Positions 28,335 through 31,775 of a DNA stretch of 64,000 nt are shown in pieces. This DNA is from Empedobacter stercoris. Its GTDB lineage: Bacteria > Bacteroidota > Bacteroidia > Flavobacteriales > Weeksellaceae. The number at the start of each line of letters is the position of its first letter. Positions within the stretch are counted from its first letter, which is position 1. The notes beneath the pieces were generated by a model. It had not been told where the DNA came from and made no database searches. It saw only the letters and a program-made list of their open reading frames with translations. The stretch lies in assembly GCF_020281205.1 (NCBI RefSeq), contig NZ_JACXZC010000008.1, forward strand, positions 1-64,000, written 5' to 3'. The translations under genes were made by a program, and so were the position numbers.

Positions 28335-28889
28335 TTATGCAAAGCTAATCAGATCTTCGTATGCTTTTTTTGCACCTTCAAAAACTTGTTGTTGCTCATT
28401 TTCTGTTGTAAATTCTTGGTCAATGTAAGCAATAAAAGTTTTCCAGATTGAACCAAGATTTTCACCATAATGTCCAAAATAATTAAAGCTTTTATGTTCT
28501 AAAAAAGGGTATTTTTTTAGTGTTTTTGCAATCACATTCCCTCCAAGCATCGATCCTTCGATTACATAAAGTGCTCCGATAGCTTCTGCTCTATTTTTTA
28601 ACTCAAATTGCTTATTTACTTGTAATTCATTTATACCTAATTCTTGTAAATCTTTTTCGATTAAAGGCAATTTATTCAATTTTGTTAAAGCCAAATTTTC
28701 TATATCCTTATCATTCAATAAATATTTAATCGATTCTTCATACGATTTCAGAAAAACGTGGTTAACCTGCAACATTTTAAAATAATTTTTATCTGTAAAT
28801 GTGCCATTAAATAATTTGTGAGATTCTAATTTTTGCTCAATTTCTGCGTGATAATTTGCTGTTTTTTTCTTTAAATAATCAGATAACAT
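28335..28889 (-). CDS. Biliverdin-producing heme oxygenase (BphO-like)
   Basis: The 184-residue all-helical protein matches the bacterial heme oxygenase family. His14 in LKKKTANYHAEIEQ is at the position of the proximal heme ligand. The distal helix motif GALYVIEGSMLGG has the glycine-rich kink typical of BphO-type enzymes. It would cleave heme to biliverdin, iron and CO in the cytoplasm. It overlaps the end of the bacteriophytochrome gene by 11 bases on the same strand, a classic bphO-bphP arrangement that implies it supplies the chromophore. Confidence 0.85.
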   Translation of the reverse strand: MLSDYLKKKTANYHAEIEQKLESHKLFNGTFTDKNYFKMLQVNHVFLKSYEESIKYLLNDKDIENLALTKLNKLPLIEKDLQELGINELQVNKQFELKNRAEAIGALYVIEGSMLGGNVIAKTLKKYPFLEHKSFNYFGHYGENLGSIWKTFIAYIDQEFTTENEQQQVFEGAKKAYEDLISFA

Positions 28890-31068
28890 CCGTACATTTT
28901 TTAAATGTTAATACAAAAGTTGTTCCTTCCCCTATTTTACTTTCAAAAGATATATCTCCATCCATTCTATTCATCATACGATGTGCAATCGCCAATCCAA
29001 CTCCATTTCCCGAAATATTTCCAGTATTTGACATTCGACTAAACAATTGAAACATCTTTTCATGATCTTCATCTTTTATTCCAATTCCGTTGTCTTTTAC
29101 TTTAAAAACGACATATTCACCAGCTATTTCTGATGAAATATTAATTTTTGGATGTGATTCTAACGATGAATATTTTACCGCATTACCAATGATGTTCAAA
29201 AAAACTTCATAAAACATTGTTTTATCTGCTAATACATTATTGATATGTTCTACTACTACTTCTGCATTTGTTGATTTGTAATACAATAATACATCACGCA
29301 CAATCTTCTCAATAATTGGTTTTGTCTGAATGTTAGATAATTCAATTTCGGATTTTTTAGCCTTACTCAAAGCTAATAAATCCTGCATCATTTCTGCCAT
29401 TCGATCAATTTCTTTCACTACATTTTGTAATCGATCATTCTTTATTTCATCGTCTTTTAAACTTCGTTGAAGCATTTGACAATTTAATTTCATGACAGAT
29501 AAAGGTGTGCGCAAATCGTGAGAAACAGTATAAGTAAATGCATCTAATTCATCATTTATTTCTTTCAACTGTTCGTATAAACTATGAATTTTGAAGGATT
29601 GTAAATGAAGTGTTTCAATAATTAATTTCACGACTTCTTTTGCAACATATTTCTCTTTTTCTAACCAAATAAACGATTTATGTTTAATTTCTTGTTGCCA
29701 AATTTTGAACGATGATTTAGAAGATGAATACACCACTTCTTTATCATCTATCACAACAATTTTATCGGTTTGATTTGAGTTCCCTACCCAATTTAATTTT
29801 TGCAATTGTTCTTTTTTAAACCAAATCACAAAATGCTTAAATCCTTGTCCCAAAAAACCACACATTACACCGGCGGCTTTTACACTTATATTTAACTCTT
29901 TTCCATAATCAACATAAAAAGAATTTGATGAAAATAATTGAGTCGGATGATTATGAATTGCCCAATCTCTAATTCTCAAAATCTCTTCAATTTCTGGTGT
30001 TTCACCTTCGTAATACACCTTCCCAAAATTAACCAAAGCTATTCCATCGGCTTGGGTTAAATGAAGAACTTGAGTTAAATAAGTATTGATTGAATTTTCT
30101 ATATTTTCCTCTGTCAAAAGATTTTCTTTAAGCTTTATAGCAATTTCATTAAATTGATTTTGAAATTTTAATCGCTCATTTGACTTAAAATTGACATACG
30201 TCAATCTACCTAAACGCGTCAACAACTCGCTTTGCAAACGAATTTGATTAGGTATATATTTTGGCTCTGTATTCTGACAAATAACAATTCCCCACAATTT
30301 TTCATTCATAATTACAGAAACTGAAAAACTTGCAGAGCAATCCGAATTTCGAAGATACTGGATATGTTCGGGTGAAAGTGCTCGAACAGATGAATATTTC
30401 AAATCAATTTTTTGATTTTTTGCGCTTAATATTTTAATCTGCGGTCCATTTACATCTGAAACCATTCGACTTTTCTTCTCTAAATACAATTCTTTCATCT
30501 GATCAGAAAAATCAAACTCTGGGAAGTGTAATCCTAAATACGAACTTAAATCATCGTCCTTTTTTTCATTAATCACAATTCCGCTTCCATCTTCAAGGAA
30601 TTGGTACAACATTACACGGTCATAACCTGTCAGGTTTTTAATTGACAGAATTAAGTTGTCCCAAGTTAATTCGGTCGATTTTGCATAAAGAATCTTTTCA
30701 GAATATTTATAAAAATCTAATCTATTTTCTAAAGTTTGTAAGTTTTCTAACTCAATATAAATATAGTCGTTTGTATAAAAAGTGGTTACATCATACTTTT
30801 CTGAATTAATTTCTATATGAGAACGATAAAACTCACCTTTTTCGAGTGCTAAAACGTCATTAAAGTTGATTTCGAAATTGTATAATTCAGCGATATTTTT
30901 CCCTAAAATTTGATTAGGAGAAATTTCAAAAACTTCGGTTATATTTTGAGAAGCAAACTCAATTTCACTCGTTTTTTTATGGATACCAATTAGATAGCCA
31001 AAAGATTGAATTTCATTAAGAAATTGAGGAGCCTCTTCTTCATCGTTTTTGATAATTTGGTTGATCAT
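28879..31068 (-). CDS. Bacteriophytochrome-like sensor histidine kinase
   Basis: The 729-residue soluble protein has a PAS domain (about 18-110), a GAF domain (about 125-290), a PHY domain (about 315-480) and a HisKA/HATPase kinase (about 505-725). The phospho-acceptor is His517 in SHDLRTPL, with NIIGNAVKYSS and DNGIGIKDED as N and G1 boxes. The GAF pocket keeps His235 in SPEHIQYLR and the Asp in PEFDFS (183-188). However, the usual N-terminal biliverdin-binding cysteine is absent (the first cysteine is residue 244), PxSDIP is altered, the His-His pair reads CQN, and the PHY tongue PRxSF reads SKSSF. It overlaps a heme oxygenase gene. No cognate response regulator is adjacent. Confidence 0.9.
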   Translation of the reverse strand: MINQIIKNDEEEAPQFLNEIQSFGYLIGIHKKTSEIEFASQNITEVFEISPNQILGKNIAELYNFEINFNDVLALEKGEFYRSHIEINSEKYDVTTFYTNDYIYIELENLQTLENRLDFYKYSEKILYAKSTELTWDNLILSIKNLTGYDRVMLYQFLEDGSGIVINEKKDDDLSSYLGLHFPEFDFSDQMKELYLEKKSRMVSDVNGPQIKILSAKNQKIDLKYSSVRALSPEHIQYLRNSDCSASFSVSVIMNEKLWGIVICQNTEPKYIPNQIRLQSELLTRLGRLTYVNFKSNERLKFQNQFNEIAIKLKENLLTEENIENSINTYLTQVLHLTQADGIALVNFGKVYYEGETPEIEEILRIRDWAIHNHPTQLFSSNSFYVDYGKELNISVKAAGVMCGFLGQGFKHFVIWFKKEQLQKLNWVGNSNQTDKIVVIDDKEVVYSSSKSSFKIWQQEIKHKSFIWLEKEKYVAKEVVKLIIETLHLQSFKIHSLYEQLKEINDELDAFTYTVSHDLRTPLSVMKLNCQMLQRSLKDDEIKNDRLQNVVKEIDRMAEMMQDLLALSKAKKSEIELSNIQTKPIIEKIVRDVLLYYKSTNAEVVVEHINNVLADKTMFYEVFLNIIGNAVKYSSLESHPKINISSEIAGEYVVFKVKDNGIGIKDEDHEKMFQLFSRMSNTGNISGNGVGLAIAHRMMNRMDGDISFESKIGEGTTFVLTFKKCTDVI

Positions 31069-31073
31069 AAAAA

Positions 31074-31775
31074 TTAATCTTCTTGCTTTCTTAACTTTAA
31101 AATATAATTTTCTAACTCTAACTCATCTGTGTCAACCAATTCAAAGTCATTATAATGCGCTAATTGAGATGTAAAAAACTCAACAACTTTATTTTTTTCA
31201 AGAGATGGATGTACTTTAATTCCATTGAATTTTATGCTCTTCATGTACACATAAAAATCACAATCAAAATCAGTTTCTCCTAAATGCGTATTGGCAATTT
31301 TCCCTTTCCATTTGATATCAAAAACACCAAATTCTTCTGTATCCAAAAATGTGATTTCGTGTTGTGCAACAGTGTCATTCCCTAACATCGAAACACCAAA
31401 GGCTAAATTTTCTGATTCATCAAGATTAATCGGAAGCGGATCAATTTCGAATACTTTATTATTGAGCTGATTAAAATCTAATTGCTCATTATTCTCTATC
31501 TTAATTCCTTTATTGTTCCAATATGTGCTCGAAATAATGGCATGATCATAATTGATCCAAAGTTGTTTTGTAGCATTTTCTTGCGAGATATCGTCTATTT
31601 CATCTAAATCGTCTTTATATTCCTCTTCTTGATCGTAATTATCAGATTCTAAATGAAGATCCATCCATAGATCAAAATTTTCATCAAGGCGAGCACTCCA
31701 AACAAAATCTATTACTTTGTGGCCGTTTGTAAATGGGCTATTTGAAAAGTATATTTTGTTATTTTCCTTACTCAT
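31074..31775 (-). CDS. Acidic cytoplasmic protein of unknown function
   Basis: The family is not recognised. The chosen ATG at 31775 gives 233 residues (MSKENNKIYFSNSPFTNG); an alternative TTG at 31829 would add 18 residues but overlaps the likely promoter. The protein is acidic, with a charged stretch (YDQEEEYKDDLDEIDD), and has no signal or membrane segment. The pattern FDIKWKGKIANTHLG, then DFDCDFYVYMKSIKFNGIKV, looks beta-rich. It ends 5 bases before the bacteriophytochrome start, so it is the first gene of that operon and may be part of the photosensory pathway; that is inference. Confidence 0.65.
   Translation of the reverse strand: MSKENNKIYFSNSPFTNGHKVIDFVWSARLDENFDLWMDLHLESDNYDQEEEYKDDLDEIDDISQENATKQLWINYDHAIISSTYWNNKGIKIENNEQLDFNQLNNKVFEIDPLPINLDESENLAFGVSMLGNDTVAQHEITFLDTEEFGVFDIKWKGKIANTHLGETDFDCDFYVYMKSIKFNGIKVHPSLEKNKVVEFFTSQLAHYNDFELVDTDELELENYILKLRKQED

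Follow-up and report, generated by a model that had tools for sequence, protein, structure and literature searches.

A phytochrome-type histidine kinase of Empedobacter stercoris that lacks the biliverdin-attachment cysteine and conserved switch motifs and keeps bilin-cavity residues and an overlapping heme oxygenase gene

For a bacteriophytochrome kinase that departs from ordinary light sensing, RpBphP4 of Rhodopseudomonas palustris may serve as the closest precedent of the general kind. It is reportedly a redox-dependent kinase with no biliverdin bound. A paper citing Vuillet 2007 (PMC6879726) states that it evolved from a light sensor to a redox sensor. SaBphP1 of Stigmatella aurantiaca naturally lacks the equivalent of His290 and is photoactive despite the missing histidine (PMC6748860); loss of the cysteine or of PRxSF is not reported there. 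SaBphP2 of the same organism is one of the closest full-length relatives with a solved structure of the protein described here. The roles of the contact between R466 and D207/Y263, of the WG/AG motif and of tongue refolding were taken from PMC6798134, and the GAF domain takes up the bilin non-covalently before the thioether forms (PMC5578081). Within the library of papers searched, none names both Empedobacter and phytochrome.

The window, a stretch of 64,000 nucleotides of Empedobacter stercoris (contig NZ_JACXZC010000008.1, positions 1 to 64,000), carries on its minus strand a cluster of an upstream ORF, a phytochrome kinase and a heme oxygenase gene, in this order (Table 1). The span 28335-31775 takes in the upstream ORF, which has no Pfam or NCBIfam match, besides the other two genes. 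The domains of the kinase follow the order PAS_2-GAF-PHY-HisKA-HATPase_c, all five above the Pfam cut-offs, and the protein is 69-74% identical to its orthologues in Empedobacter tilapiae, brevis and falsenii, in which the three-gene cluster is syntenic. Descent and architecture thus make it a bacteriophytochrome, but it lacks two features that define a working bilin-linked photoreceptor, the cysteine and the switch motifs. The genus as sampled is the GTDB genus with Empedobacter tilapiae, brevis, falsenii, Algoriella, Chishuiella and Faecalibacter. The heme oxygenase scores 53 bits against PF01126 (cut-off 23) and conserves the proximal histidine His15 and the GSMLGG of the distal glycine-rich helix; it is of the BphO type and overlaps the 3' end of the phytochrome gene by 11 nt, as the first-pass annotation had claimed.

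Table 1. Coordinates of the phytochrome cluster and of selected sites in the window
Feature	Position	Strand	Details
Upstream ORF	31074-31775	-	233 aa; first gene of the conserved cluster in congeners
Phytochrome-type sensor histidine kinase	28879-31068	-	729 aa; ATG start; PAS_2, GAF, PHY, HisKA, HATPase_c
Codon 9, canonical biliverdin-attachment position	31042-31044	-	GAT (Asp); TGT (Cys) in congeners
Altered PxSDIPxQAR segment	30493-30522	-	PEFDFSDQMK, residues 183-192; Asp186 kept; I187F, P188S, A191M, R192K
His235 codon	30364-30366	-	His260 of DrBphP; kept
PHY tongue	29707-29790	-	Residues 427-454; W-V-G-N-S-N-Q and SKSSF, versus WAGxPxK and PRxSF
Heme oxygenase	28335-28889	-	184 aa; PF01126; proximal His15 and GSMLGG kept

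For the window protein and its E. tilapiae orthologue, AlphaFold gives similar models (mean pLDDT 83.5 and 84.4, respectively), each with a beta tongue; the N-terminus and tongue of the window protein are modelled with slightly less confidence. Both are apo models, and binding lies outside what such models can show. By Foldseek, the window model reached a TM of up to 0.87 to solved phytochrome photosensory modules. Compared with the BphP/BphO kinases of the Weeksellaceae branch, the window protein shares the architecture, the fold, His235, Asp186, the propionate anchors and a heme oxygenase in the same cluster, but it has no attachment cysteine and its PxSDIP, WAG and PRxSF motifs are altered, whereas Cys, DIP, WAG and PR are intact in all ten congeners examined.

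The loss of the attachment cysteine could be followed directly on the translation. Cysteines are found only at positions 244, 264, 403, 530 and 725, and extending the frame by the 18 residues that precede the ATG adds none. The earlier claim of no cysteine before residue 244 was thus correct, and the canonical thioether site is lost: Asp9 occupies the attachment site of the PAS domain and Glu234 that of the GAF domain (SPxH). In a background survey of 151 sequences from the genus, family, order and more distant groups, 150 have cysteine at position 9, and the only one without it (L113) comes from Anabaena and has a GAF-type PCH (cyanobacterial-type) cysteine. Apart from the missing C9 and from C403 in place of C404, the window protein has the same cysteines as the E. 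tilapiae protein. The first-pass annotation had suggested that another cysteine may serve for attachment, which found little support, as C244 is shared by four congeners with the normal cysteine, C264 is universal and the GAF SPxH site holds glutamate.

The motifs that link the GAF domain to the tongue are changed as well. PRxSF reads SKSSF (residues 450-454), as had been noted before, WAG reads WVG with the proline and lysine further on also replaced, and PASDIP reads PEFDFS (residues 183-188). Proline 450 and arginine 451 occur in all 151 background sequences. The A of WAG and the IP of PASDIP show nearly the same conservation (Ile187 in 149 and Pro188 in 151), and of the residues just beyond PASDIP, Ala191 and Arg192 are each found in 150. 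The letters PEFDFS had been reported correctly, but the aspartate itself (D186) is retained, and the change concerns the flank; the arginine partner of D186 is replaced by lysine (R451K). In the second genome of the species (G011), the aromatic residue of the tongue WxE is also lost (W457L), a position that is aromatic in 150 of the 151 background sequences. The second histidine of the pocket is indeed replaced in CQN (residues 264-266), but this is no loss specific to the lineage: glutamine stands there in 97 of the 151 sequences, canonical congeners included, and CQN was dropped as part of the coordinated change.

The cavity itself is largely kept. D186, H235, Y238, R201, R229, S247 and S249 are present, as are S453 and F454 of the tongue motif, and His235, previously noted as kept, closes an SPEH motif (residues 232-235). 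In DrBphP numbering, the kept positions correspond to Tyr176, Asp207, Tyr216, Arg222, Arg254, His260, Tyr263, Ser272, Ser274, Ser468 and Phe469, and the changed ones to Cys24, Ile208, Pro209, Pro465 and Arg466, together with Ala288, which is isoleucine here. Two of the substitutions in the pocket, A263I and I187F, introduce larger side chains. Taken together, the two lists indicate that the cavity and propionate anchors stay and that the covalent bond and the surface relaying ring-D rotation to the tongue go. The mapping onto DrBphP was done by alignment offsets, with residue roles from PMC6798134 and PMC6748860.

The loss of the cysteine and of the switch motifs is specific to the own lineage of the window species. 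Within the genus, 12 of 14 genomes have the phytochrome, and Cys9, PE(F/E)DIP, WAG and the PR of PRxSF are kept in 10 congeners and missing only in both genomes of the window species. All changes recur in G011 (98.9% identical); as the two genomes agree at every one of these sites and the frame is open, a sequencing error or frame damage was rejected. The stem of the window species carries substitutions at 8 of the 39 near-invariant sensor sites (C9D, I14P, I187F, P188S, A191M, R192K, P450S and R451K), and the sister lineages at none. Sites conserved to at least 98% thus account for 8 of the 57 unambiguous sensor substitutions on the stem, but for 0 of the 73 that arose in the sister lineages (Fisher p=0.001). 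With a smaller set and the same 98% threshold, 8 sensor sites differ in the window protein, and the maximum among 132 background sequences is 3. None of the kinase-domain sites conserved at 90% is changed. The proposal that the two sides of the GAF-tongue contact changed in concert was supported: the changes go beyond any background phytochrome, and the survey of orthologues that had been suggested found the coupled substitutions only in the two genomes of this species.

Codon statistics argue against a decaying pseudogene, and the sensor module is under purifying selection. Fits per partition were confounded by synonymous saturation, and the codon model used instead (custom script) applied one common set of synonymous branch lengths to all partitions of the operon. 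Stem omega was about 0.095 for PAS, 0.093-0.098 for GAF, 0.067 for PHY, 0.036 for the kinase and 0.033 for the heme oxygenase, values that are only rough because the stem dS of about 1.7 is near saturation and the species is represented by two genomes. GAF alone was nominally raised over its background of 0.056 (uncorrected p=0.012); PAS and PHY showed no significant rise, the heme oxygenase showed no rate change on the stem (0.033 versus 0.036), and gross relaxation of selection found no support in the codon models. G011 and the window genome differ in the sensor by 6 non-synonymous and 10 synonymous changes, below the neutral expectation (p=0.003). Orthologues with a standard cysteine, which had been named as a mark of merely local decay, do exist; the decay part was not borne out, as the frame is intact, the kinase sites are spared and selection is purifying.

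Heme oxygenase and phytochrome are closely linked in the family. Among 320 family genomes, 225 have a PHY match, 225 a heme oxygenase match and 224 both, with one exception each way; the two lists were compared by eye, and the Fisher association ignores relatedness. One genome (G216) has a phytochrome-like kinase and no heme oxygenase match, an absence that is uncertain in an assembly that is 93% complete. Its gene (L178:5381-7582, minus strand; also L166) is an intact frame of 733 aa and an independent, more complete loss of light sensing: cysteine, the cavity Asp/His/Tyr/Ser anchors and PRxSF are all gone. The near-perfect co-occurrence and G216 suggest that heme oxygenase is normally tied to a bilin-binding phytochrome in this family. 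However, in G008 of the same genus (L067:7277-8587, minus strand), the upstream ORF is followed within about ten bases by an intact heme oxygenase gene, and the phytochrome is absent there and genome-wide. Retention of the heme oxygenase is therefore no proof of bilin use, despite the almost perfect linkage family-wide. In four congeners (G001, G006, G007 and G009; L033-L036), the heme oxygenase and phytochrome genes are far apart, and the overlapping arrangement is thus not shared by the whole genus. The upstream ORF is the first gene of the cluster in most congeners and stays beside the heme oxygenase gene in the cluster without a phytochrome. On the stem, its omega lies below background (0.014-0.015 versus 0.038).

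The protein is probably no ordinary light switch any more. With middling confidence, it is read here as a phytochrome kinase in which covalent attachment and the GAF-tongue switch were lost and the cavity was kept, and which likely binds biliverdin non-covalently and has an uncoupled or strongly altered light response. In its own lineage, the biliverdin thioether and the switch (PASDIP flank, WAG, PRxSF) would have been lost, and the bilin cavity, propionate anchors, kinase and overlapping heme oxygenase gene retained. Biliverdin made by the heme oxygenase may then be taken up non-covalently, which is the predicted option that most likely applies since the cavity residues and heme oxygenase are kept. 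Judged from its residues, photoswitching is probably impaired and red/far-red output altered or absent: a D-ring flip would no longer be relayed normally through tongue refolding, leaving the kinase light-uncoupled or strongly altered in its response. Against this stand R451K, where the lysine is positively charged like arginine and may yet form the contact to D186, the heme oxygenase without phytochrome in G008, and the pocket bulk of A263I and I187F. A working red/far-red photoreceptor, in which Lys451 would replace arginine in the contact to aspartate around non-covalent biliverdin, with shifted spectra or kinetics, seems improbable. Engineered bacteriophytochrome fluorescent proteins devoid of the cysteine absorb nearly like Cys15-bound ones (PMC5454922), SaBphP1 is photoactive although it has lost His290 (PMC6748860), with glutamine usual at this position in the family of the window protein, and D186, H235, Y238, S453 and F454 are kept. 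Nevertheless, the otherwise invariant P and R of PRxSF and the near-fixed A of WAG and IP of PASDIP change all together, with Trp457 gone in the second strain. Equally improbable is a conversion to a chemical biliverdin sensor for heme oxygenase activity or heme turnover, in which a reversible ligand made by the heme oxygenase would set the kinase independently of light.

A light-independent apo-phytochrome kinase has a better claim than these but is still somewhat doubtful; it would bind no bilin and be driven by redox, a small molecule or a partner, or be constitutive, with the heme oxygenase kept for iron or by lag. Loss of the cysteine and tongue motifs with a preserved kinase resembles RpBphP4, reportedly also a lineage-specific conversion of a bacteriophytochrome kinase whose normal light input was lost and whose relatives keep it. 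G008 shows that heme oxygenase can persist alone, and the bulkier I187F and A263I as well as W457L in G011 fit the same picture. However, in distinction from RpBphP4 as reported, the window species keeps the heme oxygenase and cavity residues and has no new cysteine suggestive of thiol redox sensing, its cysteine set being neutral to weakly against sensing of that type. All listed propionate and D-ring anchors are kept, save for the family-wide change of histidine to glutamine, and the G216 kinase, which is likewise an intact frame without chromophore cysteine or PRxSF, lost its anchors together with the heme oxygenase. The first-pass annotation had offered heme, CO or redox state as inputs in place of red light, but there is no specific pointer to the sensing of heme, of CO or of thiol redox. 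Early decay is unlikely; selection on the light role would have ceased and the sensor would be drifting, with kinase and heme oxygenase still unbroken. The phytochrome is absent in G008 (syntenic locus) and G010 and frame-split in G151 and G173, the stem omega of GAF is modestly up (0.098 versus 0.056, uncorrected p=0.012) and W457L adds a further tongue loss. But sensor omegas on the stem are about 0.07-0.1, PAS and PHY do not rise significantly, variation within the species falls significantly short of the neutral expectation, and the changes at near-invariant sites fall on switch and attachment positions and spare the cavity. In G173 (L167/L169) and G151 (L168/L170), the phytochrome is split in two frames within PHY, with canonical cysteine and GAF motifs, and these are likely recent frame breaks.

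The phytochrome of this species represents a natural experiment in which bilin pocket, covalent attachment and tongue switch are separated in one protein, while relatives with 69-74% identity keep all three. Together with the E. tilapiae orthologue, it forms a matched pair for testing, which would show whether a phytochrome kinase can serve beyond red/far-red sensing while the pigment supply persists.
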